Translations under genes and position numbers: made by a program
Part shown: positions 17,850 through 38,153 of the stretch, in pieces
How positions within the stretch are numbered: position 1 is the first letter of the stretch
How the letters are laid out: each line of letters starts with the position of its first letter
Notes under the pieces: generated by a model
Seen by the model: the letters and a program-made list of their open reading frames with translations, nothing else
Databases searched by the model: none
Told to the model about the DNA's origin: nothing
Source: Lachnospiraceae bacterium
Lineage (GTDB): Bacteria > Bacillota > Clostridia > Lachnospirales > Lachnospiraceae
Assembly: GCA_029227035.1 (NCBI GenBank)
Contig: JAQXZD010000093.1
Span: forward strand, 1-55,082
DNA: 55,082 nucleotides
Direction: 5' to 3'

Positions 17850-17870
17850 TAGTTGAATTGAATATGTAGT

Positions 17871-18040
17871 AATCAGGTGTCGGAGCAATCATGCATGATG
17901 ATTGGCTCCGGTGAAAAGGGAAACAGGTGCAAATCCTGTACGAACTCGTCACCGTAATTAGGGAGCTGAAGCCAATATGTCACTGGGAAACCGGGAAGGC
18001 GGCGGATGCAACGATCTATAAGCCGGGAGACCTGCCTGAG
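17871..18040 (+). ncRNA. Cobalamin riboswitch
   Basis: The conserved blocks occur in order: AGGTG near the 5' end, GAAAAGGGAA, the B12-box-like GGTGCAAATCCTGTACG, CGTCACCGTAATTAGGGAG, GTCACTGGGAAACCGGGAAGG and AAGCCGGGAGACCTGCC. TCAGG (17873-17877) pairs with CCTGA (18035-18039) to close P1. The element senses adenosylcobalamin or a related corrinoid and lowers expression of downstream genes when it is plentiful. It heads the largest gene cluster of the window. Confidence 0.95.
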
Positions 18041-18089
18041 AACTGTACGGAAACGATTGTTTCAAACCACGAGTAACTGGTTGTACGTA

Positions 18090-19449: not shown

Positions 19450-19490
19450 GCGACCGGATCCAGGGATAATAGGAAAGGTATGGCAGATAT

Positions 19491-20339: not shown

Positions 20340-20340
20340 A

Positions 20341-21504
20341 ATGAGAGGAAGAAAAAAGATAACAATTTTATGCTGCTTATTTTTTGCAGGACTGCTGGGG
20401 CTGTGTAGCTGTGGCAGTCCTTCTTCTGCTTCTGTAGAAAATAATACTGCACAGGTGGAGAGCGGAAGTGAACTTGGATATGAAAGCAGTATGGAGCTTA
20501 AATATGCCAAAAACTTTTCGGTAGATTGTTATGAGGGCGGATACAAGATGCTGTCAATTAAGGATGGAACGCAGATCCTTGTGATACCGGAAGGAAAAGC
20601 GGTGCCGGACCATCTGGATGAAGACGTGATTATTATGAAACAGCCGATTAAAAATCTTTATCTGGTGGCATCTTCTGTGATGGATATGTTCGATAAACTG
20701 GATGCACTGGATACAATTCGTCTTTCCGGGCAGAAGGAAGATGGCTGGTATATTGAATCGGCCAAAAAGGCAATGGAAGATGGCAATATTTTGTATGCAG
20801 GAAAATATAATAAGCCGGATTACGAACTGATTGTATCTGAAAATTGTTCCCTTGCCATTGAAAACATGATGATTTCCCATTCGCCGGAAGTGATTGAAAT
20901 GTTAAATGATTTTGGAATTCCGGTGATGACAGAGTATTCCAGCTATGAATCCCATCCTCTTGGCAGAGTGGAATGGATTAAGTTCTTTGGAGCATTGGTA
21001 GGGAAGGAAGAAGAAGCAGAGAAAGCATTTAATGAGCAGGTGGCTATTCTGGATAAAGTAACAGCAGACGAGAAAACAGATAAGACAGTGGCTTTCTTTT
21101 TCGTAACATCCAATGGACTCATACAGGTGCGTCAGAGTTCTGATTATATTCCAAAGATGATAGAACTGGCCGGCGGAAAATACATATTTGAAAATATCGG
21201 GGATCCGGAATCGGCTCGCTCGACCTTGAACATGCAGATAGAAGAATTTTATGATGGAGCGAAAGATGCAGATTATATCATCTACAACAGTTCCATAGAT
21301 GGTGGTGTCAGCTCTGTGGATGAATTGGTGGATAAATGTGAAGTCTTACAGGATTTTAAAGCCGTGAAGGAAGGAAACGTCTGGTGCACCACCAATGATA
21401 TGTACCAGCAGTCCATGTCTGTCGGATACCTGACCAAAGACATTCATGCTATGCTTCAGGGAAAAGATGAAGAGGAAATGACTTATCTCTTCCGATTACG
21501 ATAA
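20341..21504 (+). CDS. Corrinoid/iron-type ABC transporter substrate-binding lipoprotein (BtuF-like)
   Basis: The 387-residue lipoprotein has a signal peptide with Cys24 (LCSC) and a class III periplasmic binding fold: an N-terminal lobe with a VASSVMDMFDKLDALD stretch, a long connecting helix after GVPVMTEYSS-like strand (FGIPVMTEYSSYESHPLGR), and a second lobe with MIELAGGKYIFEN. It begins one base after the preceding stop. With the following permease and ATPase it forms a complete importer. Riboswitch control argues for a corrinoid substrate, but heme cannot be excluded. Confidence 0.85.
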   Translation: MRGRKKITILCCLFFAGLLGLCSCGSPSSASVENNTAQVESGSELGYESSMELKYAKNFSVDCYEGGYKMLSIKDGTQILVIPEGKAVPDHLDEDVIIMKQPIKNLYLVASSVMDMFDKLDALDTIRLSGQKEDGWYIESAKKAMEDGNILYAGKYNKPDYELIVSENCSLAIENMMISHSPEVIEMLNDFGIPVMTEYSSYESHPLGRVEWIKFFGALVGKEEEAEKAFNEQVAILDKVTADEKTDKTVAFFFVTSNGLIQVRQSSDYIPKMIELAGGKYIFENIGDPESARSTLNMQIEEFYDGAKDADYIIYNSSIDGGVSSVDELVDKCEVLQDFKAVKEGNVWCTTNDMYQQSMSVGYLTKDIHAMLQGKDEEEMTYLFRLR

Positions 21505-21520
21505 AGGCTGGGTGATTGAT

Positions 21521-22537
21521 ATGCATCATAGAAAAATCAGATATATAGCAGTGTTTCTTCTGTTGGGAATTGGTGTGCTGGTATTTGTGATATTAAATGT
21601 CTGTATCGGAACCGTATCCATATCCCCGCAGGATATCCTGGCGTCTCTCGGCGGACGTGAAATCAGCAATGACAGAATTGTGCGGGATATCAGAATGCCG
21701 AGAGCGATGGCTGCAATGATTCTGGGAGGAGCACTGGCACTGGCAGGTTATCTCCTGCAGACCTTTTTTCACAATCCGATTGCCGGCCCTTTTGTACTTG
21801 GGATTTCTTCCGGGGCAAAAATGGTTGTCGCGCTAGTTATGGTTTTTTTGATGGAACAGTCCGTAAGGGTCAGTTCCGCGGCTTTGATTATCGCAGCGTT
21901 TACAGGGGCAATGATTTCCATGGGATTTGTGCTTCTGATGTCCCGCAAAGTAAATAATATGTCCATGCTGGTGGTCAGCGGAGTTATGATTGGCTATATA
22001 TGTTCGGCAATAACCGAACTGGTCATCACTTTTGCCAATGATGCGGATATTGTGAATCTGCATAACTGGTCAAGAGGAAGTTTTTCGGGTATTACATGGG
22101 ATCATGTGGCTGTCATGGCAGAAGTTGTGGCAGTTACTTTTGCAGCAGTATTTTTTATGGCCAAGCCCTTAAGCGCATACCAGATGGGAGAGTCATATGC
22201 ACAGAATATGGGGGTGAATATTCGCCTGCTGAGAGTCTCTCTGGTGGTGTTGTCCAGTATTTTGTCTGCCTGTATTGTTGCATTTGCAGGTCCCATTTCT
22301 TTTGTGGGTATTGCAGTTCCGCACTTGGTAAAAGGTTTTCTGGGAACCACAAAACCGATTCTTATGATACCGGCCTGTTTTCTTGGCGGAAGTGTATTTT
22401 GTCTGTTCTGCGATTTACTGGCAAGAACCATGTTTGCCCCTACGGAGCTTAGTATCAGTACTGTTACCGCAATATTCGGTGCGCCGGTAGTGTTATGGGT
22501 TATGATAAGGCGAAATAAGGAGAAAATGGTGCAATGA
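21521..22537 (+). CDS. FecCD-family ABC permease (BtuC-like)
   Basis: The 338-residue protein has about ten membrane segments and the FecCD/BtuC hallmarks RMPRAMAAMILGGALALAG, NPIAGPFVLGISSGA, and GPISFVGIAVPHLVK near the end. The ATG at 21521 has GGTGA 5 bases upstream; an in-frame GTG at 21512 is an alternative. Its stop overlaps the ATPase start (ATGA). Confidence 0.92.
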   Translation: MHHRKIRYIAVFLLLGIGVLVFVILNVCIGTVSISPQDILASLGGREISNDRIVRDIRMPRAMAAMILGGALALAGYLLQTFFHNPIAGPFVLGISSGAKMVVALVMVFLMEQSVRVSSAALIIAAFTGAMISMGFVLLMSRKVNNMSMLVVSGVMIGYICSAITELVITFANDADIVNLHNWSRGSFSGITWDHVAVMAEVVAVTFAAVFFMAKPLSAYQMGESYAQNMGVNIRLLRVSLVVLSSILSACIVAFAGPISFVGIAVPHLVKGFLGTTKPILMIPACFLGGSVFCLFCDLLARTMFAPTELSISTVTAIFGAPVVLWVMIRRNKEKMVQ

Positions 22538-23634
22538 CATATTATTTCAGGACAGAAAAAATGAGCGTTGGCTATCATAAAGTTCCTTTGATTGAAAACG
22601 TGGAAATTGGTCTGAAGCAGGGAGAAATATTAACCCTGATAGGTCCAAACGGTGCCGGTAAATCTACAATTTTAAAGAGTATAGCAAAGCAGCTTTCCCT
22701 GATTGCCGGAACAGTCTGGCTGGATGATAAGAATATGGAAAGTATGTCCGGTAAGGAAGTATCACAGAATATGGCTGTTGTTCTGACAGAGAAGCTTCAC
22801 ACAGAACTGATGACCTGTGAAGATGTGGTAGCTACAGGAAGGTATCCGTATACCGGACGTTTTGGCATTCTCTCGGAAGCGGATTATGAAAAAGTGCAGG
22901 AAGCAATGGAACTTGTTCATGTGAATGAACTGCGGGATCAGGATTTTACAAAAATCAGTGATGGTCAAAGGCAGCGAGTCATGCTTGCCCGCGCAATCTG
23001 TCAGGAACCGCAGATTATTCTTCTCGACGAGCCTACTTCGTATCTGGATGTAAAATATAAACTGGAGTTTTTGTCGGTATTACAGGATTTGCGCAGGAAA
23101 AAGAAACTCACGGTAATTATGTCTCTTCATGAACTGGATCTGGCAGGAAAAGTATCGGATAAGATTCTGTGCATCAATGGAAAGTATATGGAGAGATTTG
23201 GAAGACCGGAGGAAGTGTTGGAGCCGGGATATATTTCAAAATTATTTTCCATCACAACAGGCAGTTACGATGAAGAGAATGGAAGCATGGAGCTTCCGGC
23301 GGCAAAGGGCGAAGCAAAAGTATTTGTGATAGCAGGGGGCGGAACCGGAAGAAAGTTGTACCACAGATTGCAGCGACAGGGAATCCCCTTTGCGACAGGC
23401 ATTCTTTTTGACAATGATCTGGATTATCCGACAGCCGGGGCATTGGCAACAGAGGTGATCGCGGCAAAGGGATTTGAGCCGATTCCGGAAGAGAAGCTTG
23501 AGATGGCAAAGCAAAGAATCGATACTTGTGAAAAAGTATTTTGTTGCAGGAAAAATTTTGGAACATTCGAACAGGCTAATGGTAAATTATTGGAATATGC
23601 AAAGCAATTGCATAAAGAGATTAAGTTTATATAG
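22534..23634 (+). CDS. ABC transporter ATPase (BtuD/FecE-like) with C-terminal Rossmann-like extension
   Basis: Residues 1-250 are a normal ABC ATPase with Walker [10 protein letters not shown], a slightly altered signature ISDGQRQRV in place of LSGGQ, and Walker [13 protein letters not shown]. Residues 258-366 form an extra domain that opens with [17 protein letters not shown], a nucleotide-binding-like turn, and includes an ILFDNDLDY strand and a CCRKNFG motif. FecE-type ATPases usually end near 260 residues. The extension may be regulatory or may handle a substrate. The start overlaps the permease stop. Confidence 0.9.
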
Positions 23635-23644
23635 GAAGAATTTT

Positions 23645-25132
23645 ATGGCGAAAGTGATTATGATACAGGGAACCATGTCCGGTGCAGGCAAAAGTCTTCT
23701 GGTGGCAGGTTTATGCAGAGTGTTTAAACAGGATGGTTATCGGGTTGCGCCATTTAAATCCCAGAATATGGCACTGAATTCTTTTATCACAACAGAAGGA
23801 CTGGAGATGGGACGGGCGCAGGTTATGCAGGCAGAGGCGGCGGGAATAATGCCGATGGTATGCATGAATCCGATTCTGTTAAAGCCAACCAACAATGTTG
23901 GCTCCCAGGTGATTGTAAATGGGGAAGTTCTCGGAAACATGAGCGCCAGAGATTATTTTGAATATAAAGTGAAACTGATTCCCGATATCAAAAAGGCGTT
24001 TCGCAAGCTGGAAGAATTCGCGGATATTATTGTAATAGAAGGAGCGGGAAGCCCTGCGGAAATTAATTTAAAACAGAATGATATTGTCAATATGGGAATG
24101 GCAGAAATGGTAGATGCATCGGTTCTTCTGGTAGGAGATATTGACAGAGGCGGTGTATTTGCCCAGCTTTTGGGAACGTTGATGCTTCTTACGGACAGTG
24201 AGAAGGACAGAGTGAAAGGAATGATCATCAATAAATTCCGTGGAGATCAGTCAATCCTGGATCCCGGAATCGAAATGTTAGAGGAGAGAGGAAAGGTTCC
24301 GGTAACCGGTATTGTTCCTTATATGGAGTTGTTGTTGGAGGATGAAGACAGTTTAACAGAGCGGTTTGATCATAAAGCAAAGGGGCTTATTGATATTGCG
24401 GTTATTCATTATCCAAGGATTTCCAATTTTACGGATTTTAATGTTTTTGAACAAATTCCTGAAGTATCTGTGCGTTATGTGAGCAGTGTAAAGGAATTGC
24501 AGCATCCGGATATGATAATTCTGCCGGGAAGTAAAAATACCATGGGTGATTTGAAGTGGATGAGACAGAATGGCCTGGAAGCGGCCATAAAGAAGCTGGC
24601 TGAGGAGATTCCTGTGTTTGGAATCTGTGGCGGATATCAGATGCTTGGTATGAAAATTGAAGATCCGGATGTGGTGGAAGAGGGCAGCAGTATCCGGGGA
24701 ATGGAATTATTACCGGTTACCACTGTTTTAAGGAAAGAGAAAAAGCGCTGTCAGACAGAAGGCATGATTAATCAGATAGAAGGCATTTTCAGCAGGCTTT
24801 CAGGGAAAGGTTTTATGGGTTATGAAATTCACATGGGGGAAACAACCGGTTTGGGAGCCACGCGGAAAAATAAAGAAGCGATGCCTGTGGTAATCTCTGA
24901 CAATCGGAATGTATATGGTTCTTATGTGCATGGATTGTTTGACGGGGAAGATATCGTGAATGGAATTGTACATATTCTGGCAGAGAGAAAAGGAATTACC
25001 ATAACAGAAGGAGTGCTTGAAGATTATCCGTCATATAAAGAGAAGCAGTATGACAAACTGGCAGATACGCTAAGAGAATATCTGAATATGGAGGACATAT
25101 ATGGAATGCTTAGAGAAGCCCGCCTGGAATAG
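23645..25132 (+). CDS. cobQ: Cobyric acid synthase
   Basis: The enzyme amidates four side chains of adenosylcobyrinic a,c-diamide. The 495-residue protein has the dethiobiotin-synthetase-like ATP domain ([12 protein letters not shown], then [10 protein letters not shown]) and a glutamine amidotransferase domain with catalytic Cys in [11 protein letters not shown] and His in [10 protein letters not shown]. The frame is open upstream, but the ATG at 23645 begins the P-loop strand at the normal distance. The symbol cbiP is also used. The next start lies within its 3' end. Confidence 0.95.
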
Positions 25133-26198
25133 ATTTACAAGAAAAAAATTGGAGCAGATAGTAATCGGTGAACCGGATGCGGATGTGCGAAACAGGATAT
25201 TGCAAACCTGGGATACAGTGGCAAAACCGCTGGATGGAATGGGAAAATTTGAGACGCTGACAGCACAGATTGGAGCGGTTCTTGGTACAGAGAATATCGA
25301 CATTTCCAGGAAAGCGGTCATCATTATGTGTGCAGATAACGGTATTGTTGAAGAAAATGTGACCCAGACCGGACAGGAGATTACAGCCCGTGTTGCCGCA
25401 GCAATGGGAAAAAGAACTTCCTGCGTAGGAAGGATGGCAAAGATAGTCGGGGCAGAAACCATTCCTGTGGATATCGGCATTAACAGTATGGAAAAGATAG
25501 ATGGTGTTCTCGACAGAAAAGTAAGATGTGGAACAAGAAATTTCAGCAAAGAACCGGCTATGACAGAAGAGGAAGCAATTGCTGCAATTGCAGTCGGCAT
25601 AGACATGGTAAAAGAGTGTAAAAAGGACGGATACACCATCCTTGCAACCGGGGAAATGGGGATTGGCAATACGACAACCAGCAGTGCAATTACAGCAGCT
25701 CTTCTTCATTGTGAAGTGAGTCAGGTGACAGGCAGGGGTGCAGGATTAAGCGGTGAGGGGCTGATACATAAACAGCAGGTGATTTTGGAGGCAATACAAA
25801 AATATGATTTATATCACAAAGACGCTTTGACGGTGCTTAAGACAGTAGGAGGTTTTGATATTGCGGGACTTGCAGGCGTGTGTATGGGCGGTGCCATATA
25901 TCATGTACCAATTGTTCTGGACGGAGTAATCAGTATGGTTTCGGCACTTCTGGCGGAACGGATACTTCCGGGAACAAAGGCTTATTTACTTCCTTCCCAT
26001 AAAGGAAAAGAACCGGCAGTAGAACTGTTAATGAAAGAACTGGGGCTGGAACCGGTTATTGATGCAAATCTTGCATTGGGAGAAGGTAGCGGCGCAGTGA
26101 TGATGTTTTCCCTGCTGGACATTGCACTGGGAGCTTATGGGAACCGAACAACATTTTCCGAGCTTCAGATGAAACCATATCGGAGGTTTGAAACATGA
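25101..26198 (+). CDS. cobT: Nicotinate-nucleotide-dimethylbenzimidazole phosphoribosyltransferase
   Basis: CobT activates the lower-ligand base to its alpha-riboside phosphate. The 365-residue product contains PLDGMGKFE, the [16 protein letters not shown] block, [14 protein letters not shown] and the catalytic-Glu region [11 protein letters not shown]. It overlaps cobQ by 32 bases and the cobU stop/start by 4. Confidence 0.95.
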
Positions 26199-26737
26199 TG
26201 ACATTAATTATCGGAGGTAGCGGCAGCGGAAAATCAGCTTATGCAGAAGACTATCTGTCCGACATCTCGAAAAACAGCAGAAAATATTATCTTGCAACCA
26301 TGCAGGCTTTTGATATGGAAGGCAGAATGAAAATTGAGAAACACCGAAAAATGAGAAACGGAAAAGGATTTCACACCATAGAACAGCCGATGGATATCGA
26401 TACTGCATTAAATGAAATGGAAGAACCAAAAGAAAGCGCAGCACTTTTGGAATGCATTTCCAATCTGACTGCAAATGAAATGTTTTCGGGAGAGCAGGCA
26501 AAAGACAGCAGGGAAGTAACCGAAAAAATTGTAAATGGGGTAAAGCAGCTAAAGGAGAAATTAAATCATCTGGTAATTGTCAGCAATAATGTATTTGAAG
26601 ACGGAATCCGGTATGATGAGACCACCATGGAGTACATAAAGGCTATGGGAATGATTAATGAAAGGCTGGCAGCCATGGCAGATCAGGTGATCGAGGTAGT
26701 TGTAGGGATTCCGGTTGCTGTAAAGAAAGGAAATTAG
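26195..26737 (+). CDS. cobU: Adenosylcobinamide kinase/guanylyltransferase (CobU), copy 1
   Basis: CobU phosphorylates adenosylcobinamide and adds GMP. The 180-residue protein has the P-loop GGSGSGKSAYAE and the KIEKHRKMRNGKGFHTIE block that contains the guanylylated His. The usual NEVGxGIVP motif near residue 125 is replaced by NNVFEDGIRYDE. That motif is kept in a separate smaller CobU-like gene 774 bases downstream, so the two copies have diverged. Confidence 0.9.
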   Translation: MMTLIIGGSGSGKSAYAEDYLSDISKNSRKYYLATMQAFDMEGRMKIEKHRKMRNGKGFHTIEQPMDIDTALNEMEEPKESAALLECISNLTANEMFSGEQAKDSREVTEKIVNGVKQLKEKLNHLVIVSNNVFEDGIRYDETTMEYIKAMGMINERLAAMADQVIEVVVGIPVAVKKGN

Positions 26738-26738
26738 T

Positions 26739-27506
26739 ATGCGGATTATAAAATCTTTTATTATCGCATTTTCCATGTATTCCACAATTCCCATGCCACA
26801 GTTTGAGTGGAAGGACGAGGATATGAAATATATGCTTTGCTTTTTCCCCTGGGTAGGTGCAGTGATTGGCATTTGTGTTTATTTATGGAAAATGGTTTGT
26901 GCCAGATTTGGAATCGGCTCCCTGTGCTATGCATGCATAGGAACTGCCATTCCGCTTCTTATCACAGGGGGCTTTCATGTGGATGGATTTATGGATACGA
27001 TGGATGCATTCCATTCCTATCGGCCAAAAGAAAAGAAACTGGAGATATTGAAGGACTCCCATATCGGAGCTTTTGCAGTAATCATGCTGGGAACCTATGG
27101 GCTCATATATCTGGGGGCGTTTTTGCAAATTCAAAACAAGGATATATTACAAATTGTCTGTGCGGGATTTTGTCTGGCCAGAGTCTTAAGCGGAATCAGT
27201 GTGGTTTCCTTTCCAGCTGCCAAAAAGGAAGGCATGCTTTATCATTTTGCAGACAGTGCACAAAAAAACATTGTAAAAATCTTTCTGTATTTACAGGGCA
27301 TATTGTGCATCGGCTTTATGTTATGGAGATCTTTTTACGTAGGTCTTATTGTGTGTGCAGCAGCTTTAGGAGCATTTGTCTACTATTACAGGCGGTGTAA
27401 AAAGGAACTTGGTGGAATTACGGGAGACACTGCGGGTTATTTTGTATTAATCTGTGAAGGTTGTATGATGGTGAGCGCAGCAGTTTTTAATGTACTTGGA
27501 GGATGA
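26739..27506 (+). CDS. cobS: Adenosylcobinamide-GDP ribazoletransferase (cobalamin synthase)
   Basis: CobS is the integral membrane enzyme that joins the activated corrinoid and alpha-ribazole. The 255-residue protein has six or so membrane segments and the Mg-binding GGFHVDGFMDTMDAFHS motif near residues 69-85, plus IGAFAVIMLGTYGL. Only one base separates it from cobU. Confidence 0.93.
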   Translation: MRIIKSFIIAFSMYSTIPMPQFEWKDEDMKYMLCFFPWVGAVIGICVYLWKMVCARFGIGSLCYACIGTAIPLLITGGFHVDGFMDTMDAFHSYRPKEKKLEILKDSHIGAFAVIMLGTYGLIYLGAFLQIQNKDILQIVCAGFCLARVLSGISVVSFPAAKKEGMLYHFADSAQKNIVKIFLYLQGILCIGFMLWRSFYVGLIVCAAALGAFVYYYRRCKKELGGITGDTAGYFVLICEGCMMVSAAVFNVLGG

Positions 27507-27510
27507 AAAA

Positions 27511-27894
27511 ATGAAACTGGTAATTGGCGGATATTCACAGGGAAAACTGGGAGTTGTATTATCAAATTATAAAGAAGAGGAAGTGGAAGTTTTTGATGGT
27601 TTACTTCCTCCGGATGAAGAGCAACTGACAAAAACCGTAATCATCAATCATTTCCATAACTGGGTAAGAAACCGGTTGCTGCAGGAAAAGAAACCGGAAG
27701 CAGAAATAGAATCCTATTTAAAAAAACATCCACAGACAATCATTATCAGTGATGAGATTGGAAATGGAATTGTGCCCGTAGATGCTTTTGAAAGAGAGTA
27801 CAGGGAGCGAACAGGGAGAATTCTTGTAAATCTGGCAAAACAGGCAGATGAGGTGGTGCGTGTGATATGCGGAATTGGTCAGAAAATAAAATAG
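27511..27894 (+). CDS. Small CobU-like protein, copy 2
   Basis: This 127-residue protein has a degenerate P-loop (GGYSQGKLG in place of GGxxSGKS) and a well-kept C-terminal CobU half: ISDEIGNGIVPVDAFEREYRERTGRILVNLAKQADEVVRVICGI. The central region is shorter than in CobU and the HRxxR stretch is missing. It may supply the guanosine-binding end or be a regulatory subunit. The ATG at 27511 follows TTGGAGG; the ATG at 27490 lies before this site. Confidence 0.75.
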   Translation: MKLVIGGYSQGKLGVVLSNYKEEEVEVFDGLLPPDEEQLTKTVIINHFHNWVRNRLLQEKKPEAEIESYLKKHPQTIIISDEIGNGIVPVDAFEREYRERTGRILVNLAKQADEVVRVICGIGQKIK

Positions 27895-28493
27895 AGCTGG
27901 TACTTATCCGGCATGGAGCCACGAAAGCCAATCAAGAACACAGATATCTGGGAAAGACAGATGAAAGCTTAAGTCCGGAAGGTATAGAAGAGCTTAAGAA
28001 GGCAAGACAGAAAGGCTTTTATCCTGCTGTTGACAGCCTGTTTGTAAGTCCGATGAAAAGATGTATGGAAACAGCAGAGATTTTATATCCAGACAAAGCA
28101 GTGATTCCCATACAGGAATTTGAAGAAATGGATTTTGGAATCTTTGAAGGAAAGAATTATCTGGATTTGCAGAATGATAAAAGATATCAGGCGTGGATTG
28201 ACAGTAATGGCACATTACCGTTTCCGGAAGGAGAAAGCCGGGAAGATTTTATCAGAAGATGTGAACAGGGATTCCGGAAGATGATAGATTCTATTAGGGA
28301 TAATCATGCACAGGGAACGATAAAGGCAGGGGCAATTGTACATGGAGGCACCATCATGTCGGTTCTAAGCAGTTTTTACGGTGGAGATTATTTTGATTAT
28401 CAGATTCAAAACGGAAAAGGATACATCTGTAAGCTGAAAGGAAATACTTATGAAATATCACATATCGGCATTCTTTCTGGGGTTTCTTCTTGA
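27867..28493 (+). CDS. cobC: Alpha-ribazole phosphatase (histidine phosphatase family)
   Basis: The 208-residue protein has the histidine-phosphatase signature LVLIRHGATKAN near residues 10-21, SPMKRCMETAEIL, the acid EMDFGIFEG and the second His in AIVHGGTIM. In this operon it should remove the phosphate from alpha-ribazole phosphate or the final cobalamin phosphate. It overlaps its neighbours on both sides. Confidence 0.88.
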   Translation: MRNWSENKIELVLIRHGATKANQEHRYLGKTDESLSPEGIEELKKARQKGFYPAVDSLFVSPMKRCMETAEILYPDKAVIPIQEFEEMDFGIFEGKNYLDLQNDKRYQAWIDSNGTLPFPEGESREDFIRRCEQGFRKMIDSIRDNHAQGTIKAGAIVHGGTIMSVLSSFYGGDYFDYQIQNGKGYICKLKGNTYEISHIGILSGVSS

Positions 28494-29436
28494 TTTGATT
28501 TTGGGCGATCCCCATTGCTTTCCACATCCAATCCGTCTGATTGGATACTTGATAGAGAAGTTGGAAAAATGGTTACGAAAGAAGCCTGATTCGCGAGATG
28601 AAAAGAAAGAAATAAAAAAAGGAATCCTACTTGTGCTTATCGTGCTTGTGATTACGGCTGCAGTGACATCCATAGCAGCAATTGGAGCATATTACATAAA
28701 TCCTTATCTGGGAGTTGCAGTGGAAACCATTATGACGTATCAGATTCTTGCCACAAAGAGTCTTAGGACAGAAAGCATGAAGGTATATAAAAGTCTGAAA
28801 GAAGAAGGCCTCGAAGAAGCAAGAAAGGCTGTTTCCATGATTGTGGGAAGAGATACAACAGTTCTGGATGAAGAGGGTGTGACAAAAGCTGCAATAGAGA
28901 CCGTAGCGGAAAATACTTCTGATGGAGTGATTGCTCCCATGCTGTATACGGCACTTGGAGGGCCGGTTCTGGGATTTTTATATAAGGCAGTCAATACCAT
29001 GGATTCCATGGTTGGTTATAAGAATGATAAGTATCTGTATTTTGGAAGGGCTGCAGCAAAACTGGATGACGTGGTGAATTTCGTACCGGCCAGAATCAGC
29101 GCGTATCTGATGATTTTAGCGTCTTTTCTTGGCGGTAAGAATTACAATGGAAAGCAGGCATATGGTATATACAAAAGGGACAACCGGAAGCATGCAAGTC
29201 CAAATTCCGCCCAGACAGAATCGGTATGTGCCGGGGCTTTGGGACTTCAGTTAGCCGGAGATGCCAGTTATTTTGGAAAGGTGGTAAAGAAGCCATATAT
29301 TGGGGATGCCTTAAGGAAGGTGGAATACGAGGATATTAAACGGGTAAATCATCTGATGTATTTAACGGCAGGAATCAGTGAAATACTCTGTCTTATTTTG
29401 ATGATAGTTTTTACATATCTGATAGAAGGGATGTGA
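28450..29436 (+). CDS. cbiB: Adenosylcobinamide-phosphate synthase
   Basis: CbiB attaches aminopropanol phosphate to adenosylcobyric acid. The 328-residue membrane protein has LDLILGDPHCFPHPIRLIG at the start, the AAIETVAENTSDGVIAPM block, and NAQTES-like HASPNSAQTESVCAGALG near residue 245, all typical. The start lies within cobC. Confidence 0.95.
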   Translation: MKYHISAFFLGFLLDLILGDPHCFPHPIRLIGYLIEKLEKWLRKKPDSRDEKKEIKKGILLVLIVLVITAAVTSIAAIGAYYINPYLGVAVETIMTYQILATKSLRTESMKVYKSLKEEGLEEARKAVSMIVGRDTTVLDEEGVTKAAIETVAENTSDGVIAPMLYTALGGPVLGFLYKAVNTMDSMVGYKNDKYLYFGRAAAKLDDVVNFVPARISAYLMILASFLGGKNYNGKQAYGIYKRDNRKHASPNSAQTESVCAGALGLQLAGDASYFGKVVKKPYIGDALRKVEYEDIKRVNHLMYLTAGISEILCLILMIVFTYLIEGM

Positions 29437-29443
29437 CCGGTAA

Positions 29444-30475
29444 GTGGGTGGAATACATGGCGGAGACATTTACAGAAATAAAGTAAATATGGATTTTTCC
29501 GTAAATATCAATCCTCTGGGGATACCGGATGAGGTGAAAAAGGTACTGAAGGGCGCAGCGGACCGATGCCTGGAATACCCGGATATGGAGGCATCTGAAT
29601 TAAAATCTGCGGTTAGTAATATGCTGGGCATTCCGGGAGAGTATCTGACATTCGGAAATGGGGCATCCGAGATTTTTATGGGAATTGTGCATGCACTGAA
29701 ACCGGAGAAAACGCTGATTCCGGTTCCTTCATTTTATGGTTATGAATATACCACAGAGGCGGCTTCAAGTGATATTGTTTATTTTCCATTGAAAGAAGAG
29801 AATGAATTTTTGCCGGATGAAGATTTACTGGAAGCCCTGACAGAAGATATCGATATGCTCTGGTTTGCAAATCCCAACAATCCCACGGGAAAGAGGGTAG
29901 AGACAGAGTACCTGAAAAAACTGTTTCAGGTGTGCAGAGAGAAAAACATCTATGTGGTACTGGACGAGTGCTTTATCGAGTTCTGCGGCAGTGAATATTC
30001 CATGCTGCCGGATATGGAAGATTATGCGCATGTATTGATTGTCCGTGCATTTACAAAGATTTATGCAATTCCCGGAGTGAGATTAGGGTATCTGGTGTGC
30101 AGTAATAAGACTTTGTCAGACAGAATCAGAAAGCAGCTTCCGGAGTGGAACCTGTCCGTTTTTGCACAGGCGGCAGGTGTTGCATGCACAGGGCAGAGGA
30201 CCTATGTAGAAAAAACAGTAGAGTATGTAAAAAAAGAAAGAAAATATTTAACCGATGGATTAAAAAGGTTCGGTTTTCATGTGTATAACAGTGATACAAA
30301 TTTTATTCTGATTTACAGCGAAAGACCATTGTATGAAATGCTGTTGCAAAGGGGAATTTTGATTCGTGACTGTGCAAATTTTAAAGGTTTGTCAAAGGGA
30401 TTTTACAGAATTGCGGTAAAGCAGAGAAAGGATAACGAAAAGCTGTTGGAAGCGATAGGTGATTGTATTGGATAG
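29444..30475 (+). CDS. cobD: Threonine-phosphate decarboxylase, PLP enzyme
   Basis: CobD makes aminopropanol phosphate for CbiB. The 343-residue type I PLP protein starts with GGIHGGDIYRN and VNINPLG, and has NPNNPTGK, the LDECFIEF strand, and the Schiff-base Lys in RAFTKIYAIPGVRLGY. A GTG at 29444 is the only start that keeps the HGGD motif, since TAA precedes it. Its ribosome binding site is weak, so it may depend on coupling with cbiB. Confidence 0.93.
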   Translation: MGGIHGGDIYRNKVNMDFSVNINPLGIPDEVKKVLKGAADRCLEYPDMEASELKSAVSNMLGIPGEYLTFGNGASEIFMGIVHALKPEKTLIPVPSFYGYEYTTEAASSDIVYFPLKEENEFLPDEDLLEALTEDIDMLWFANPNNPTGKRVETEYLKKLFQVCREKNIYVVLDECFIEFCGSEYSMLPDMEDYAHVLIVRAFTKIYAIPGVRLGYLVCSNKTLSDRIRKQLPEWNLSVFAQAAGVACTGQRTYVEKTVEYVKKERKYLTDGLKRFGFHVYNSDTNFILIYSERPLYEMLLQRGILIRDCANFKGLSKGFYRIAVKQRKDNEKLLEAIGDCIG

Positions 30476-31106
30476 GATAGAACATTTATTACCGGAAGAA
30501 ATTGAAAAGAGAAGTTTTGAGATTATTTCACAGGAACTGGAACAAAAGGGAATTGTCCTGCCACAAGAACAGGAAATGATTACCAAACGGGTCATCCACA
30601 CCAGTGCAGATTTTGATTATGTTAAGACTCTTTGCTATTCAAAGAACGCAGTGAGAATTGCAAAAGACTTAATTTTAAATGGCGCAGACATTGTGACGGA
30701 TACCAATATGGCCAGGGCAGGAATCAATAAGAAAATGCTGGCTCGTTTCGGCGGAGAAGTACATTGCTTTATGGCAGATGAGGAAGTGTCACAGACAGCA
30801 AAGGAAAGAGGAACCACACGGGCAGCAGTCAGCATGGAAAAGGCATCTAAGCTGACGAAACCGGTTATTTTTGCCATAGGAAATGCGCCGACAGCTTTAA
30901 TTCAATTGTATGAAATGATGCAGAGCAAAGCCTTTCGACCGGCCTTTGTGATTGGGGTTCCGGTAGGGTTTGTGAATGTGGAAGTCGCAAAAGAACTGAT
31001 TATGGAAATGGATGTGCCGTATATTGTAAACAGAGGAAGAAAAGGCGGAAGTAACGTGGCAGCAGCAATCTGTAATGCATTGCTTTATGAGCTTGGCAGG
31101 AGGTGA
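30468..31106 (+). CDS. cbiC: Cobalt-precorrin-8 methylmutase
   Basis: CbiC moves a methyl group from C11 to C12 of the corrin ring. The 212-residue protein contains IEKRSFEII, the catalytic-His region RVIHTSADFDY, TDTNMARAGI and the end block GFVNVEVAKE...NRGRKGGSN. A TTG at 30468, five bases after AGGTGA, is preferred; a GTG at 30459 would add three residues. It overlaps cobD. Confidence 0.93.
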   Translation: MDRIEHLLPEEIEKRSFEIISQELEQKGIVLPQEQEMITKRVIHTSADFDYVKTLCYSKNAVRIAKDLILNGADIVTDTNMARAGINKKMLARFGGEVHCFMADEEVSQTAKERGTTRAAVSMEKASKLTKPVIFAIGNAPTALIQLYEMMQSKAFRPAFVIGVPVGFVNVEVAKELIMEMDVPYIVNRGRKGGSNVAAAICNALLYELGRR

Positions 31107-31110
31107 GCAG

Positions 31111-32232
31111 ATGCGATATGGTTTTACCACAGGCAGTTGTGCGGCAGCGGCGGCAAAAGCAGCGGCATATATGCTGTTGGCCGGAAAAGTGAAGACGGAG
31201 ATAACCATAGAAACGCCAAAGGGGATTCACTATACGGCGCAAATTCTTAAGATTAGGCGGGGGGAAAAGGAAGTAAGCTGTGCGGTAGAAAAGGATGGCG
31301 GGGATGATCCGGATATCACCACCGGAGCATTGAGTTGTGCAAAGGTTTCCTATATTGATACAGAGGAAGAGGCTAAGGTTCTGGTTGATGGCGGCATCGG
31401 AGTAGGGCGTGTGACAAAGCCCGGTCTGGATCAGCCGGTGGGAAATGCGGCAATCAATCATGTCCCAAGGGAGATGATTGAGAGAGAGGTACTACAGGTA
31501 TGCAGGTTGTTGGATTATCAAGGTTCTTTAAAAGTAGAAATCTCCGTTCCGGAAGGGGAGCGGATTGCAGAATAGACCTTTAATCCGAGACTGGGAATCG
31601 AAGGGGGGATTTCTATTCTTGGAACCAGTGGAATTGTAGAGCCCATGAGCAATCAGGCAATATTGGATACAATTCGGGTAGAGCTGAATCAGAGAAAAGC
31701 ATTGGGGTATGATTACGTGGCAGTTTCTCCGGGAAATTATGGCTTGGAGTTTATGAAGAAAGTCTATGGCTACGATTTGGATCAGAGCGTGAAATGCAGT
31801 AACTTTATCGGAGATACCATTGACATGGCCGTAGAGCTTGGTTTTAAAAAGATGCTTCTCACCGGACATATCGGAAAGTTAATCAAGGTGGCAGGAGGCA
31901 TTATGAATACTCATTCCAAGGAAGGCGATTGCAGGATGGAACTGTTGACTGCTTTTTCCGTAAAATCCGGAGTGGAATCAAAGCAGGCAAGTGAAATTTT
32001 AGAGTGTGTTACAACCGAAGAGGCTGTGCGTATTCTTAAGGAAACCGGTAAGCAGCAGGAGGTAATGGATTATGCCATGGAGCGTATCTGTTATTATCTA
32101 AATAAACGTGCAAAAGGAAAGATGCAGGTTGATTGCATCATGTATTCCAATGAGTTTGGCGAGTTGGCAAAAAGTAAGGAGGCGAAGGAATGGTTTACTT
32201 TGTTGGAGCGGGAACAGGAGCAGCAGATTTAA
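31111..32232 (+). pseudogene. cbiD: Cobalt-precorrin-5B C1-methyltransferase gene interrupted by an in-frame TAG
   Basis: The frame runs from MRYGFTTGSCAAAAAKAA (after AGGAGGTGAGC) to 32232 and is a full CbiD of about 373 codons, except for TAG at 31573-31575. The protein reads VPEGERIAE, then TAG, then TFNPRLGIEGGISILGT without loss of frame or residues. Relatives usually have Lys at this codon, so an AAG-to-TAG change is likely. The stop separates a 154-residue N-terminal piece from a C-terminal piece whose first ATG is at 31645. Many genes here end in TAG, so general recoding is unlikely. Either cbiD is dead, or the two parts are made separately, or the TAG is suppressed or a base-call error. 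Confidence 0.9.
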
Positions 32233-32951
32233 TTACGGTCAGGGGAATGCATCTTTTGGAGCAGGCAGACGTCATTATTTATGCCGGTTCTCTGGTAAAT
32301 CCCAAACTGCTTGATTATGCAAAAAAAGAATGTGAAATTCATAACAGTGCAAAGCTGACGTTGAATGAAGTGATAGACATTATGAAGAAAGCGGAAGAAG
32401 AAGGAAAAGTGACGGTCAGACTTCATACAGGGGATCCAAGTATTTACGGTGCAATCAGAGAGCAGATGGATGAGCTGGACAGACTGGGAATTGAATATGA
32501 AAGTTGTCCTGGTGTCAGTGCCTGTTTTGGAGCGGCGGCTTCTCTGAATCTGGAATACACCCTGCCGGATATTTCCCAGTCTTTGATCATTACAAGAATG
32601 GAAGGAAAGACAACGGTTCCGCCGAGAGAAAGCATAGAAAGTTTTGCGGCACATCAGGCTTCCATGGCAATCTATTTAAGTACCGGTATGCTGGAGGAAT
32701 TAAGCAGGAGACTGCTTGCAGGCGGCTACAGAAAAGACACGCCTGCAGCGCTTGTGTATAAGGCGACCTGGCCGGAAGAACAGGCATACATCTGCACGGT
32801 AGAAACCCTGCAAAAGACAGCCGAAGAACATGGAATTACAAAGACGGCATTAGTTCTGGTAGGGGATGCCATTATGCATCGGAAATATAAAAAATCCAGA
32901 TTATATGCATCGGATTTTTCAACAGAATTCAGGCAGGCAAAGGAAATATAA
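32190..32951 (+). CDS. cbiF: Cobalt-precorrin-4 C11-methyltransferase
   Basis: The 253-residue SAM-dependent tetrapyrrole methylase starts MVYFVGAGTGAADLITVRG and has the family blocks YAGSLV, LHTGDPSIYGA, CPGVSACFGAAA and the LYLSTG-like IYLSTGML. Its start lies 43 bases inside the cbiD frame with AAGGAGG upstream, so its expression does not require passage through the cbiD stop. Confidence 0.95.
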   Translation: MVYFVGAGTGAADLITVRGMHLLEQADVIIYAGSLVNPKLLDYAKKECEIHNSAKLTLNEVIDIMKKAEEEGKVTVRLHTGDPSIYGAIREQMDELDRLGIEYESCPGVSACFGAAASLNLEYTLPDISQSLIITRMEGKTTVPPRESIESFAAHQASMAIYLSTGMLEELSRRLLAGGYRKDTPAALVYKATWPEEQAYICTVETLQKTAEEHGITKTALVLVGDAIMHRKYKKSRLYASDFSTEFRQAKEI

Positions 32952-32953
32952 GA

Positions 32954-34021
32954 ATGGGTTTAAGTGTGATCAGTTTTACAGAAAATGGAATGCACCTTTC
33001 GGAAAAAATAGCAGGACAATGGAAACTTGCAGAGGTCAGTGTGTTTACGAAATGTTCTTATGTAAAAGAGTTTGCAAACTGTTTCCATATTTCGTATGTG
33101 GAACAGTCCATTGGGGACTGGGCAAAAGAACAGATGAAAGAAAAAAATGCGCTGCTTTTTATCGGAGCCTGTGGAATTGCGGTAAGAGCAATTGCAGGCT
33201 GCATCACGGATAAGCTAAATGACAGCCCGGTATTGGTTATGGATGAACAGGGAAACTATGTGATTTCGATTTTGTCCGGACATGTGGGAGCTGCCAATGA
33301 ACTGGCAGTGAAGATTGGAGAATTGACAGGCGCAATACCGGTTATTACAACGGCAACAGATCTTAACCGGCGTTTTGCCGTGGATTTATTCGCAAAGCAT
33401 AATGGGTTACAGATTGTGAATAAAGATGGCATTGCAAAAGTATCATCGAAGGTGTTATCCGGGAAAGAGATCACCATATCCATAGAATCCGGTCATGTGA
33501 AGGATTCTGCAAAATTGCCGGAAGGCGTAAGGCTTGTCTCCTATCCGCCAAAGCAGTCGGTTGATGTAGTGATAACAACAGAAAAATCGAAATTTGATGC
33601 ACTTCTTTATCTGAGGCCAGAAGAATATGTGATTGGAATGGGATGCAAAAAGGGAAAAGAAGCAGAAAAAATATCGGGTTTGATTGCAAAAAGAATCCGG
33701 GAGGCAGGTATTGAGAAAAGCGAGATTTTTGCACTCACTTCCATAGACCGCAAGAAGGAAGAAGCGGGATTCCTAAGTTGGAGCAGAAAAGAGAAGATTT
33801 CCTTTCTTACCTTTTCGGCAGAACAGTTGCAGGAAACAGAAGGGGAATTTCATGCGTCTGCTTTTGTCAGAGAACAGGTTGGGGTGGATAATGTGTGCGA
33901 GAGAGCAGCCTTAGCTGCATGTGGAAAAAATGGAAGGTTAATTTGTGGAAAGCATGCAGAGGATGGAATGACCATAGCAATTGCAAAAAGAGATTGGAGA
34001 GTATCATTTGATGAAGAATAG
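32954..34021 (+). CDS. cbiG: Cobalt-precorrin-5A hydrolase
   Basis: CbiG opens the delta-lactone and releases acetaldehyde. The 355-residue protein has the N-terminal CbiG block LLFIGACGIAVRAIAG, the central SGHVGAANELA and a C-terminal domain starting VIGMGCKKGKEAE, with LTSIDRKKEEAGF. Only two bases separate it from cbiF. Confidence 0.94.
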   Translation: MGLSVISFTENGMHLSEKIAGQWKLAEVSVFTKCSYVKEFANCFHISYVEQSIGDWAKEQMKEKNALLFIGACGIAVRAIAGCITDKLNDSPVLVMDEQGNYVISILSGHVGAANELAVKIGELTGAIPVITTATDLNRRFAVDLFAKHNGLQIVNKDGIAKVSSKVLSGKEITISIESGHVKDSAKLPEGVRLVSYPPKQSVDVVITTEKSKFDALLYLRPEEYVIGMGCKKGKEAEKISGLIAKRIREAGIEKSEIFALTSIDRKKEEAGFLSWSRKEKISFLTFSAEQLQETEGEFHASAFVREQVGVDNVCERAALAACGKNGRLICGKHAEDGMTIAIAKRDWRVSFDEE

Positions 34022-34772
34022 CATTTATATCATAGGAATGGGACCGGGCAAAGAAGAAATGATGACCGGAGAAGCCTTGCAGGCTCTGGAAGAGTCGGAT
34101 GTGATTATCGGGTACACGGTTTATGTGAAATTGCTTGGGGAGCGTTTTGCAGGAAAGGAAATGCTTACAACTCCCATGCGGCAGGAAGAGGAGCGTTGCA
34201 GGCTTTGCTTTGAGGAGGCTGACAAAGGAAAACAGGTGGCCTTAATCTGCAGTGGGGATGCGGGAATTTACGGGCTGGCATCCCTGATGTATGAAATCGG
34301 GAAAGAATACCCGGATACAGAGCTTGCGGTGATTCCCGGGGTTACAGCGGCAAACAGCGGGGCGGCTGTTCTAGGCGCACCTTTAAATCATGATTTTTGT
34401 GTGATAAGTCTGAGCGATTTGCTGACACCGTGGGAAAAAATAGAAAAACGTCTTCTTGCCGCAGCGGAAGGTGATTTTGCCATAGCTATTTACAATCCTT
34501 CCAGTCATAAGAGAAAAGATTATCTGATGCGGGCATGTGATATCTTACTCAGAATTATAGAAGAAGACAGACCGTGCGGTTATGTGGAGAACATCGGAAG
34601 AGAAGGTACAAGGGCAGTGACCTGCACCTTAAAGGAGTTGAGGGAAGCACAGGTAAATATGTTTACAACTGTGTTTGTAGGAAATTCCGGCTCTGAAATT
34701 ATCAACGGAAAGCTGATTACGAAGCGAGGGTATCAAATTGAAGAAAATACTGATATTTGCAGGAACAACTGA
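34011..34772 (+). CDS. cbiH: Cobalt-precorrin-3 C17-methyltransferase
   Basis: The 253-residue methylase carries IYIIGMGPGKEEMMTGEA, the GYTVYVKL strand, ICSGDAGIYGLASLMYE, VIPGVTAANSGAAVLGAPL and IYNPSSHKRKDYL, all typical of CbiH/CobJ, which contracts the ring. The ATG at 34011 follows GGAGAG and lies in the end of cbiG. Confidence 0.95.
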   Translation: MKNSIYIIGMGPGKEEMMTGEALQALEESDVIIGYTVYVKLLGERFAGKEMLTTPMRQEEERCRLCFEEADKGKQVALICSGDAGIYGLASLMYEIGKEYPDTELAVIPGVTAANSGAAVLGAPLNHDFCVISLSDLLTPWEKIEKRLLAAAEGDFAIAIYNPSSHKRKDYLMRACDILLRIIEEDRPCGYVENIGREGTRAVTCTLKELREAQVNMFTTVFVGNSGSEIINGKLITKRGYQIEENTDICRNN

Positions 34773-36774
34773 AGGAAGAAAACTGTCTGAATGTCTGGCG
34801 GCGGCCGGGATTTCCCATACAATCTGTGTGGCTACGGAGTACGGAGAAGTGGTTTTAAAGGAGCATCCCCTTGCAAAGATTCACTGCGGACGAATGAATC
34901 AAAGTGAGATACGGGAATATATCAGAAACGGTCAATTCGCAGCGGTGGTAGATGCAACACATCCATATGCGGAAGTAATTACGGAAAATATACAAAAAGC
35001 AATGGAAGGACTGGACATTCCGTATTTGCGGTTAAAGAGAGACACAGAGGATGAGAGCACTTATCAGAAAATCACTTATTTTGAAAGCAATGAGGATTGC
35101 GCGAAAGCTCTGGAACAGATAGAAGGGAATATTCTTCTGACCACCGGGAGTAAAGAACTGGCGGTATATTGCTCAAATGAGAAAGTAAAACAAAGACTCT
35201 ATGTCAGAATACTTCCCGGAATGGACAGCCTGAAACTGTGTATGGAACAGGATATAATGGGAAAACAGATTCTGGCTTTGCAGGGACCGTTTACTACAGA
35301 GATGAATGAAGCTATGTTATGTCAGTATCAGATAAAATGTCTTGTGACCAAGAAAAGCGGCAGGACAGGCGGGTATCAGGAAAAAATTGATGCGGCAAAA
35401 AACCAGGATATACCGGTGTTTGTGGTTGGACAGGCGAAGCCGCAGAAAGGAGATTCTTTTGCGGAAGTCTGCCATAAACTGGAGGCGATTTGCGGACAGA
35501 CGATAAGAATAACGGATGGAATGGAAATTATACTGGCTGGTGTCGGTATGGGAAGCAGGGATTGCCTCACCATAGAAGTTCGCAAAGAAATTGAAAATGC
35601 GGACATTTTATTGGGGGCTAAGCGCATGATTGCGCCATATCAGCCCAAAGTGGAAAAACAACCATTTTATACGGCAAGCCGGATTATTCCGTATTTAAAA
35701 ACTTTACAGGAAGATGGCAGGGTTGTCATTCTTTTCTCCGGCGATAGCGGCTTTTACAGCGGATGTCAGAGTCTGTATCAGGCATTGCGGGAAGAAATAC
35801 AAGAGGGCAGGCTAAATGCAACAGTTCGCATTATGCCGGGAATTTCTTCGGTGGCATATCTTGCAGCAGGGATCGGGGAGTGTTATCAGGATGCAGACAT
35901 ATGCAGTATGCATGGAAAAAGCCTTATCAATCTGACCGAAAGAATCAGAAGCCATAAGAAGACGTTTCTTATCATGTCAGGGGTTCAGGATGTCAACAGA
36001 CTGGGAAACTTGTTAGCAGATGCCGGATTACAGGACTGTGAAATCTTTGTCGGCTATCAGCTATCCTATCCTGAACAGAAAATCAGGAACATGACTCCGA
36101 AAGAATGTATGGAATTGGAGGAAGAAGGCTTATATTGTTGTTGCATTAAGAATCCTTGTGCTGTAAAAAAGAAATTAACCCATGGAAAAGCAGATGCAGA
36201 CTTTATCAGGGATAAAGTGCCCATGACAAAAGAAGAAGTACGGGAAGTCAGTATATGCAAGATGAACCTGCATCAGGGCGCTGTGGTATATGATATCGGA
36301 AGCGGGACAGGCTCTATCGCCGTTGAAACAGCGGCACTTTCGGATGATATTCAGGTGTTTGCAATCGAACAGAAGAAAGAAGCGGTTTCGCTTATAAAAC
36401 AAAACAGAGAGAAGTTTGGGCTTGAAAACATCGAAGTGGTAGAAGCATCAGCACCGGAAGGATTGACGGGACTGCCGGCACCTACCCATGCCTTTATAGG
36501 GGGAAGCGGCGGACACTTGAAAGAAATATTGTCGGCTCTGTATCAAAGGAATCCCGGGATGCGGGTTGTCATCAATGCAATCAGCATGGAAACCATCTGT
36601 GAAATAAGAGAGATATTGTCCGGATATCCGATAGAGGGGGAAGAAATCGTACAGATGCAGGTCAGCAGAGCGAAGACTGCAGGAAATTATCATCTGATGC
36701 AGGCAGAAAATCCGGTATGGATATGCGCTTTTAACTTTTTTAAGTCTGAACAGGCAGAAAGGGGAACACAATGA
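34738..36774 (+). CDS. Fused precorrin-6A reductase, C5/C15-methyltransferase (CbiJ-CbiE-CbiT)
   Basis: One 678-residue protein joins three enzymes. Residues 1-255 are CbiJ (LIFAGTTEGRKLSE, DATHPYAEVI, LALQGPFTTEMN). Residues 262-460 are the methylase CbiE (IILAGVGMGSRDCLT, FSGDSGFYSGC, IMPGISSVAYLAA). Residues 480-678 are the decarboxylating methyltransferase CbiT (VPMTKEEVR, YDIGSGTGSIAVE, AFIGGSGGHLKEI). CbiE-CbiT fusions are common as CobL; the added reductase makes three successive late steps one polypeptide. The start is TTG at 34738 with GAGGG seven bases before it, inside cbiH. Confidence 0.93.
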   Translation: MKKILIFAGTTEGRKLSECLAAAGISHTICVATEYGEVVLKEHPLAKIHCGRMNQSEIREYIRNGQFAAVVDATHPYAEVITENIQKAMEGLDIPYLRLKRDTEDESTYQKITYFESNEDCAKALEQIEGNILLTTGSKELAVYCSNEKVKQRLYVRILPGMDSLKLCMEQDIMGKQILALQGPFTTEMNEAMLCQYQIKCLVTKKSGRTGGYQEKIDAAKNQDIPVFVVGQAKPQKGDSFAEVCHKLEAICGQTIRITDGMEIILAGVGMGSRDCLTIEVRKEIENADILLGAKRMIAPYQPKVEKQPFYTASRIIPYLKTLQEDGRVVILFSGDSGFYSGCQSLYQALREEIQEGRLNATVRIMPGISSVAYLAAGIGECYQDADICSMHGKSLINLTERIRSHKKTFLIMSGVQDVNRLGNLLADAGLQDCEIFVGYQLSYPEQKIRNMTPKECMELEEEGLYCCCIKNPCAVKKKLTHGKADADFIRDKVPMTKEEVREVSICKMNLHQGAVVYDIGSGTGSIAVETAALSDDIQVFAIEQKKEAVSLIKQNREKFGLENIEVVEASAPEGLTGLPAPTHAFIGGSGGHLKEILSALYQRNPGMRVVINAISMETICEIREILSGYPIEGEEIVQMQVSRAKTAGNYHLMQAENPVWICAFNFFKSEQAERGTQ

Positions 36775-38153
36775 AGCTGAATCGAATCATGATTGCGGCA
36801 CCGAAAAGCGGAAGTGGAAAAACGACAATTACCTGTGCACTGTTACAGGCACTTAAGGATGCCGGAAAAAGTGTTGTTTCCTATAAATGTGGTCCTGACT
36901 ATATTGATCCGATGTTTCACCGGAAGGTAATTGATATTCCTGCTAAAAACCTGGATACTTTTTTTTCAGGGGAGGAAGAAACGAAAAGACTTTTTCTAAA
37001 AAATCGAACGGAAGCAGATTTTGTGGTGATAGAGGGAGTTATGGGCTTGTATGACGGGCTTGGTGGAGTCCGGGAGGAAGGTTCTTCCTATCATCTGGCA
37101 AAGGTGACAGGAACCCCTATTATTCTGGTGGTGGATGCCAAAGGGATGGGGCGGTCAGTCATTCCGCTGATTGCGGGATTTCTGGCATATGATAAGGAAC
37201 ATCTGATTCAGGGAGTGATTTTAAACCGGATGTCCGGATCCTGTTATGAAACAATCAGACCTTTGGCGGAAGAGGAACTGGGAATTTGTGTGCTTGGATA
37301 TTTTTCGGAGAATCGGAAACTTCATATAGAAAGCAGGCATCTGGGACTTATGATGCCGAGTGAACTGGATGATATAAAAGCGCAGATACAGATGGCATCC
37401 GGGGAATTGCAAAAGAATGTTTCGATAGAACGAATCGCACAGATTGCAGAAAATGCCGGAGAATTGGAATGCCATGCATCAAATTTATCGGAAGTGGATT
37501 ATTTCAGGGAGGGGGAAGCTCTTGTGATTGCTGTTGCAAAAGACGAAGCGTTTTGTTTTTATTATGAGGATAACCTTACACTCCTACAGGACTATGGTGC
37601 CGAAATTGTGTATTTTTCTCCGCTTCATGACCAGAAAATTCCAAAGAATTGTCAGGGGATTTTATTGGGAGGAGGTTATCCGGAATTATATCTGGAGAAA
37701 CTTTCCCGCAATGAAAGCATGAAAGAATCCATCCGAAAAGCAATCTCTGATCATATGCCGGTAATTGCGGAGTGTGGCGGTTTTATGTATCTTCATAAAG
37801 AAATCACAGATGCGAAGGGGATAACTTATGAAATGGTTGGAGCATTGGATGGAAGCTGTGTCTATACAGGAAAGCTGGTAAGATTTGGGTATATTGAATT
37901 AAATGAGAGGCGAAGTAACTTTTTACCGGAAGGGACAAAAATAAGAGGGCATGAATTTCATTATTTTGACAGCAATTGTAATGGAGAAGATGTGGTTGCC
38001 AAAAAGCCGGTAACCGGAAGAGAGTATGCTTGTGTCATCGACAGAGAGAATTGCTGGCTGGGATTTCCTCATCTGTATTATCCGTCGAATCCGGAGTTTG
38101 TTCGGAACTATGTGGGGAAAGCGTATGAGTATATGAGAAGGAAGAGAGGATAA
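36771..38153 (+). CDS. cbiA: Cobyrinate a,c-diamide synthase
   Basis: CbiA amidates the a and c side chains of cobyrinate. The 460-residue protein has the ATP-domain P-loop APKSGSGKTTITCAL, KCGPDYIDPMFH, and a glutamine amidotransferase end with Cys in AECGGFMYLHKEI and His in GHEFHYFD. The start overlaps the previous stop (ATGA). Confidence 0.95.
   Translation: MKLNRIMIAAPKSGSGKTTITCALLQALKDAGKSVVSYKCGPDYIDPMFHRKVIDIPAKNLDTFFSGEEETKRLFLKNRTEADFVVIEGVMGLYDGLGGVREEGSSYHLAKVTGTPIILVVDAKGMGRSVIPLIAGFLAYDKEHLIQGVILNRMSGSCYETIRPLAEEELGICVLGYFSENRKLHIESRHLGLMMPSELDDIKAQIQMASGELQKNVSIERIAQIAENAGELECHASNLSEVDYFREGEALVIAVAKDEAFCFYYEDNLTLLQDYGAEIVYFSPLHDQKIPKNCQGILLGGGYPELYLEKLSRNESMKESIRKAISDHMPVIAECGGFMYLHKEITDAKGITYEMVGALDGSCVYTGKLVRFGYIELNERRSNFLPEGTKIRGHEFHYFDSNCNGEDVVAKKPVTGREYACVIDRENCWLGFPHLYYPSNPEFVRNYVGKAYEYMRRKRG

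Follow-up and report, generated by a model that had tools for sequence, protein, structure and literature searches.

A single in-frame TAG in cbiD of a Lachnospiraceae B12 gene cluster, probably a recent nonsense mutation

Results

A cbiD gene with one stop

The window, that is the whole stretch of 55,082 nucleotides analysed here, contains a real cbiD gene with one stop in its frame, and the profile matches that identify it are far beyond chance. Comparison with related sequences suggests a recent nonsense mutation in this gene, at a site that varies among relatives and where a glutamine codon probably underwent a C-to-T change; we give this reading a probability of about two in three. An earlier note on this DNA had placed a TAG in the middle of the cbiD frame, and our searches confirmed it, both halves of the frame matching CbiD profiles:

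31111-32232, + strand: cbiD frame, ending in TAA, with PF01888 and TIGR00312 matches
31111-31572, + strand: N-terminal fragment of 154 aa, CbiD family (PF01888, 3.5e-51; TIGR00312, 189.9 bits)
31573-31575, + strand: in-frame TAG, codon 155 of cbiD, followed by A
31576-32232, + strand: frame of the C-terminal fragment, 218 aa, lacking its own start (PF01888, 3.4e-41; TIGR00312, 228.3 bits)

PF01888 aligns with residues 1-154 over its positions 1-145 (174 bits) and with the frame downstream of the TAG over positions 147-254 (142 bits); the two halves cover positions 1-148 and 150-343 of TIGR00312, the N-terminal fragment scoring just below the cut-off of 200 bits. The TAG thus fills one profile position with neither gap nor frame change, i.e. 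one codon where one residue is expected. Scanning of the whole frame found no second stop, and the contiguous matches on either side bear out its earlier description as otherwise unbroken and conserved. The gene matches both family profiles over the whole protein but lacks a single uninterrupted open frame. The activity that defines CbiD is methylation of cobalt-precorrin-5B at C1. The C-terminal part also has a weak sequence match to PDB 1sr8 (E 0.00087).

The source genome (G000; 2.40 Mb on 121 contigs, with 85.6% completeness and 2.6% contamination) appears to be a metagenome bin. In a whole-genome profile search, PF01888 matched the entire cbiD frame with 334 bits and one TAG inside, and no second copy of cbiD was found.

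The stop is private to this genome among those compared

Relatives supplied 102 distinct cbiD frames that run uninterrupted over 330 aa or more. Codon 155 was mapped in 102 loci, one of which is the window itself (L009); a locus that begins downstream of this codon (L096) was dropped. The 101 others include at least five repeats, four of them between two collections (L004/L041, L007/L046, L011/L094, L018/L061) and one at a single place (L022/L023). The comparison with relatives that the earlier note had proposed gave a clear result: all 101 other loci, which include no conspecific, have a sense codon at this position and none has a stop, so that the stop is private to this genome. A search of viral contigs by DNA pattern for a conspecific allele gave 0 matches.

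The codons found were CAG (31), AAG (27), AAA (18), CAT (7), AGG (4), CAA, CGT and AAT (2 each) and eight further codons once each. Among the eight most similar cbiD genes there were three CAG, two CAT, two CAA and one AAG. The closest cbiD, at 84% identity, is that of Roseburia hominis An869 (L024), which pairs with the window on the cbiD tree with weak support (88/74). Since this nearest relative has CAG, a glutamine codon is a likelier parent than AAG, as judged from these alignments. The single-base change from AAG suggested earlier hence stands as to a recent single-base nonsense event; AAG is a possible parent, and a glutamine codon is favoured. The site itself is variable, with Q, K, R, H, E, S, G and N in its column of a 59-sequence alignment. 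In a structure predicted with TAG read as Q, it lies at the end of a helix (149-156; mean pLDDT of 71 for residues 151-160).

That the two fragments are made as separate polypeptides and reassemble into CbiD is very improbable. The predicted model, read by eye, has the break at the junction of a largely beta N-terminal part with an alpha/beta C-terminal one, and a run of six G (31603-31608) lies 6 bases ahead of an in-frame ATT at 31615; but the first in-frame ATG (31645) is separated from the TAG by 23 codons and lies past the conserved TFNPRLGIEGGISILGTSGIVEP block, and none of the 101 other loci has such a break at codon 155. Re-initiation past the TAG was rejected as a candidate, as ATG, GTG and TTG are all absent from those 23 codons.

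Conservation of cbiD and age of the stop

The alignment used for conservation comprised the window and 58 relatives picked for their known CbiL state. At the 94 columns invariant among the other 58 sequences the window's cbiD showed 0 changes, and it deviated at 1 of 141 columns of 95% conservation, a middle rank. Compared with L024, dN/dS was 0.091 before the TAG and 0.057 after it; for 13 other genes from cobT (last third only) to cbiA it ranged from 0.049 to 0.293, cbiP and the importer genes being left out of this comparison. With dS values as high as 1.34 and 1.45 in the two parts of cbiD, these ratios describe the long past and not the time since the stop arose. No further lesion was seen in cbiD, as expected for a very recent event, and dS is too high for a test of relaxed selection. 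A pristine sequence of this kind could reflect a mutation of very recent date, an error, or continued use of the gene, the last no less than the first. A side observation from the same comparisons is one stop within the aligned cbiH stretch of L031 and L036, probably the end of that gene.

The second of these possibilities is unlikely but has to be taken seriously: the TAG may stem from an error in consensus or assembly, or from the allele of a minority strain, in an organism whose cbiD is intact. The draft state, incompleteness and contamination of the assembly speak for it, as do the lack of any other lesion in cbiD and an in-frame TAA in one of 76 ABC_tran matches, which shows that stops of this sort, whether genuine or artefactual, occur elsewhere in this genome. 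Against it, the TAG is one clean substitution in a conserved context, there are no frame changes like those that disrupt cbiD in G026, a further genome of the genus, and we saw no direct sign of error.

TAG is a normal stop in this genome

The earlier note had also considered TAG suppression and proposed a search for a suppressor tRNA and pyl genes; the searches made here gave this idea no support. TAG ends 11 of 47 plus-strand genes in a hand-made list for the window, and none of the 76 ABC_tran matches in the source genome contains a TAG. The one in-frame TAA among these matches lies at G000:C89:24754-25155. All 45 tRNA genes found in the genome were typed and none has a CTA anticodon, while tRNA-Gln genes with CTG and with TTG are both present; Trp and Ala tRNAs are missing from those typed, so the tRNA set is incomplete. 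The only PylS model that was run, for the N-terminal domain, had no match in this 85.6%-complete genome. Two genes of the RF-1 family (357 and 361 aa) are present, which we take to be RF1 and RF2. Neither PylS nor a CTA tRNA nor TAG used as sense in other genes was thus found, and taken together with the use of TAG as a regular stop, this makes general amber decoding very unlikely. Decoding dedicated to the cbiD TAG, by pyrrolysine or by a suppressor tRNA that could sit in the missing part of the assembly, is scarcely credible in view of the same searches. Pyrrolysine and amber suppression were accordingly rejected as candidates.

A leaky stop, at which glutamine tRNAs, as near-cognates, would occasionally decode UAG and so supply enough CbiD for a tiny B12 need, is improbable as well. 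Many residues should do at a variable codon at the end of a predicted helix, both glutamine tRNAs are present, and cbiD is pristine. Moreover, the base after the TAG is A, and an A following UAG favours suppression. Against a leaky stop speak the regular use of TAG as a stop in the window, the two RF-1-family genes and the absence of visible selection for read-through.

The B12 cluster around cbiD

The gene lies in a cluster of 20 ORFs, cbiD included, which is headed by a cobalamin riboswitch and extends up to 38153. In gene order, with cbiD between cbiC and cbiF, it comprises:

17858-18053, + strand: cobalamin riboswitch at the cluster head (RF00174, 103.9 bits)
18238-23634, + strand: CbiK-like lipoprotein, NEAT-like lipoprotein, periplasmic-binding protein, BtuC-like permease and BtuD-like ATPase, a putative corrinoid or tetrapyrrole importer
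23474-30475, + strand: cbiP (match beginning at about 23651), cobT, cobU, cobS, a CobU-like ORF, cobC, cbiB and cobD, late corrin and nucleotide-loop genes
30459-31106, + strand: cbiC, open frame (PF02570, 9e-79)
32190-32951, + strand: cbiF, open frame (TIGR01465, 334.5 bits)
32954-34021, + strand: cbiG, open frame
33981-34772, + strand: cbiH, open frame (TIGR01466, 301 bits)
34738-36774, + strand: cbiJ-cbiE-cbiT fusion, open frame
36771-38153, + strand: cbiA/cobB, open frame

The other 19 ORFs are open, and those from cobU to cbiA align with relatives over most of their length. Regarding a complete pathway, cbiF, cbiG, cbiH, cbiC, cbiJ-E-T, cbiA, cbiP and the loop genes are thus all present with open frames. 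The names of the two lipoproteins are tentative, since the CbiK match (183 bits against an NCBI cut-off of 400) and the NEAT match (32.1 bits against a Pfam cut-off of 32.8) are both below their thresholds; the lipoprotein signals were read by eye. At 18238-20339 these two genes adjoin the BtuCD-type importer of the riboswitch-led cluster, with which they possibly form a tetrapyrrole or corrinoid capture system. Beside the full cobU, the short ORF at 27490-27894 matches only the C-terminal part of CobU (PF02283), and such a CobU-like ORF also occurs in 23 of 30 stretches fetched from relatives. These stretches, of about 20 kb each, were read by eye for the importer genes, and many of them cut the cluster; the complete order from the CbiK-like gene through the NEAT-like, binding protein, BtuC and BtuD genes to cbiP was seen in 5 of the 30.

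cbiD in the genus and the family

cbiD was found in 29 of 62 genomes of the genus. In the subset of 30 with completeness of at least 90% and contamination of at most 5%, it is present in 17 and absent from 13, which indicates that doing without cbiD is tolerated. The gene is interrupted in two of the 29 cbiD-bearing genomes, by the TAG in G000 and by a split over two frames in G026 (locus L022, G026:C187). In a draw from the family, cbiD is present in 230 of 397 genomes; of the matches listed, that of G000 is the only one with a stop.

CbiL is not found in this genome and in many relatives

In the source assembly, CbiL was not found (best TIGR01467 match of 52 bits against a cut-off of 163, in an assembly that is 85.6% complete). 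The genome has five TP_methylase matches. By position and sequence, four of them are CobA-HemD, CbiF, CbiH and CbiE; the fifth is presumably RsmI. In the genus, CbiL occurs in 17 of the 29 cbiD-bearing genomes (16 over the cut-off and one at 162 bits), and 12 of them, the source genome included, are without it. In the 33 genomes with the closest cbiD genes, whose completeness is unstated and of which at least two are shared with the genus set of 29, no CbiL over the cut-off was found in 28, their best score being 58.6 bits.

Genomes in which CbiL was not found despite later corrin genes occur among L024-L056 (G481-G513) and comprise also G034, G063, G076, G031 and G013. Isolates are among them, namely R. 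hominis An869, strain NC2008 and G034, taken as R. inulinivorans DSM 16841. In 18 picked genomes searched with PF00590, the four CbiL-bearing ones have six matches each, while of the 13 CbiL-lacking ones besides the source genome eight have four matches and five have five; by elimination, a CobA match is missing from the eight with four.

With CbiL labels set by hand on the cbiD tree (22 with, 36 without), 11 changes are needed against a shuffled mean of 18.5, which means that the character is clustered and does not reflect a single event. A single CbiL loss was considered and is not supported by this count, to which incomplete assemblies may add false absences. It is doubtful that a full de novo pathway existed here, as CbiL was not found in this genome and had no match above the threshold in 28 of the 33 that carry the closest cbiD genes. 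The earlier proposal that the strain had very recently lost de novo B12 synthesis consequently holds only in part: a recent nonsense change fits, but a complete pathway to be lost is in doubt.

Discussion

Our results support the notion that cbiD of this Lachnospiraceae genome was inactivated recently. In the simplest history, a C-to-T transition in a glutamine codon would have produced the TAG at codon 155; translation would end after residue 154, functional CbiD would not be made, and the corrin ring would not be completed past cobalt-precorrin-5B. The cell might then rely on imported corrinoids, using the BtuCD-type importer and the salvage genes. Because these genes stand in the same cluster, the loss of CbiD would be tolerable, and it should be survivable where corrinoids are available. 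The remaining cluster would have had no time to decay, and no other break was seen among the genes compared. If the stop is real, it shows a B12 pathway just as decay sets in, while all 19 remaining ORFs of the cluster are open, and it gives a simple prediction on B12 need. Such a nonsense allele is an ordinary, routine kind of event.

More interesting than the cbiD TAG is the CbiL gap across relatives, which raises the question of how Lachnospiraceae whose late corrin pathway is open get by without CbiL. One reading, tentative and rather doubtful, is that the cluster serves as a salvage route for late precursors rather than as a de novo pathway, the cbiD stop being a lesion or a leaky stop therein. 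CbiH to CbiA are retained in many Lachnospiraceae in which CbiL is missing, CobA being missing from some of them as well. A C20-methylated tetrapyrrole may be imported via the riboswitch-controlled CbiK-like and NEAT-like lipoproteins and BtuCD; alternatively, a so far unknown C20-methylating enzyme may be used. In the 30 fetched stretches, at least part of the CbiK-like/NEAT/BtuCD set was seen for 9 of 13 CbiL-lacking genomes, but for four no such genes lie close by, and the set also occurs in 4 of 16 CbiL-bearing genomes; its link with the CbiL gap is therefore loose.

Passages of published work bear on this question. According to Table 2 of Shelton et al. (PMC6461909), CbiL/CobI is present in 99.2% of predicted producers and 87.1% of tetrapyrrole-precursor salvagers; the accompanying text describes the complete corrin ring genes in these salvagers, which number 201 genomes. 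With only 87.1% of the 201 having CbiL, that table suggests that CbiL gaps are not new there. In contrast, a comparison of Roseburia genomes (PMC7478625) states that all genes from siroheme onward except cobR occur in all Roseburia genomes, which counts against a real CbiL gap and conflicts with the present searches. Passages of another study (PMC7360928) report a full cobalamin gene set in none of its strains, and good growth without cobalamin of all strains but one, in a medium that contained methionine and nucleotides. For an Antarctic Chlorobium, B12 genes are described as varying within one natural population (PMC8620254).

As for known systems, the window differs from the salvagers of cobinamide or tetrapyrrole precursors, as far as they are characterised in passages of PMC6461909, in that CbiL was not found and cbiD is interrupted; it shares with them a partial pathway that leans on an outside precursor. 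Compared with the CbiD family, the fragments of the window's cbiD match end to end and the gene has the same placement between cbiC and cbiF as in relatives, the difference being one in-frame TAG at codon 155. The nearest parallel within the genus, G026, likewise has a broken cbiD in a draft genome, yet its gene is split over two frames and not broken at codon 155. Nonsense-inactivated biosynthesis genes are known in bacteria that are able to import the product. Whereas the cbiD stop has been seen in one draft assembly and from its sequence alone, the window resembles these cases in having a single stop in an otherwise intact pathway gene, with an importer present.
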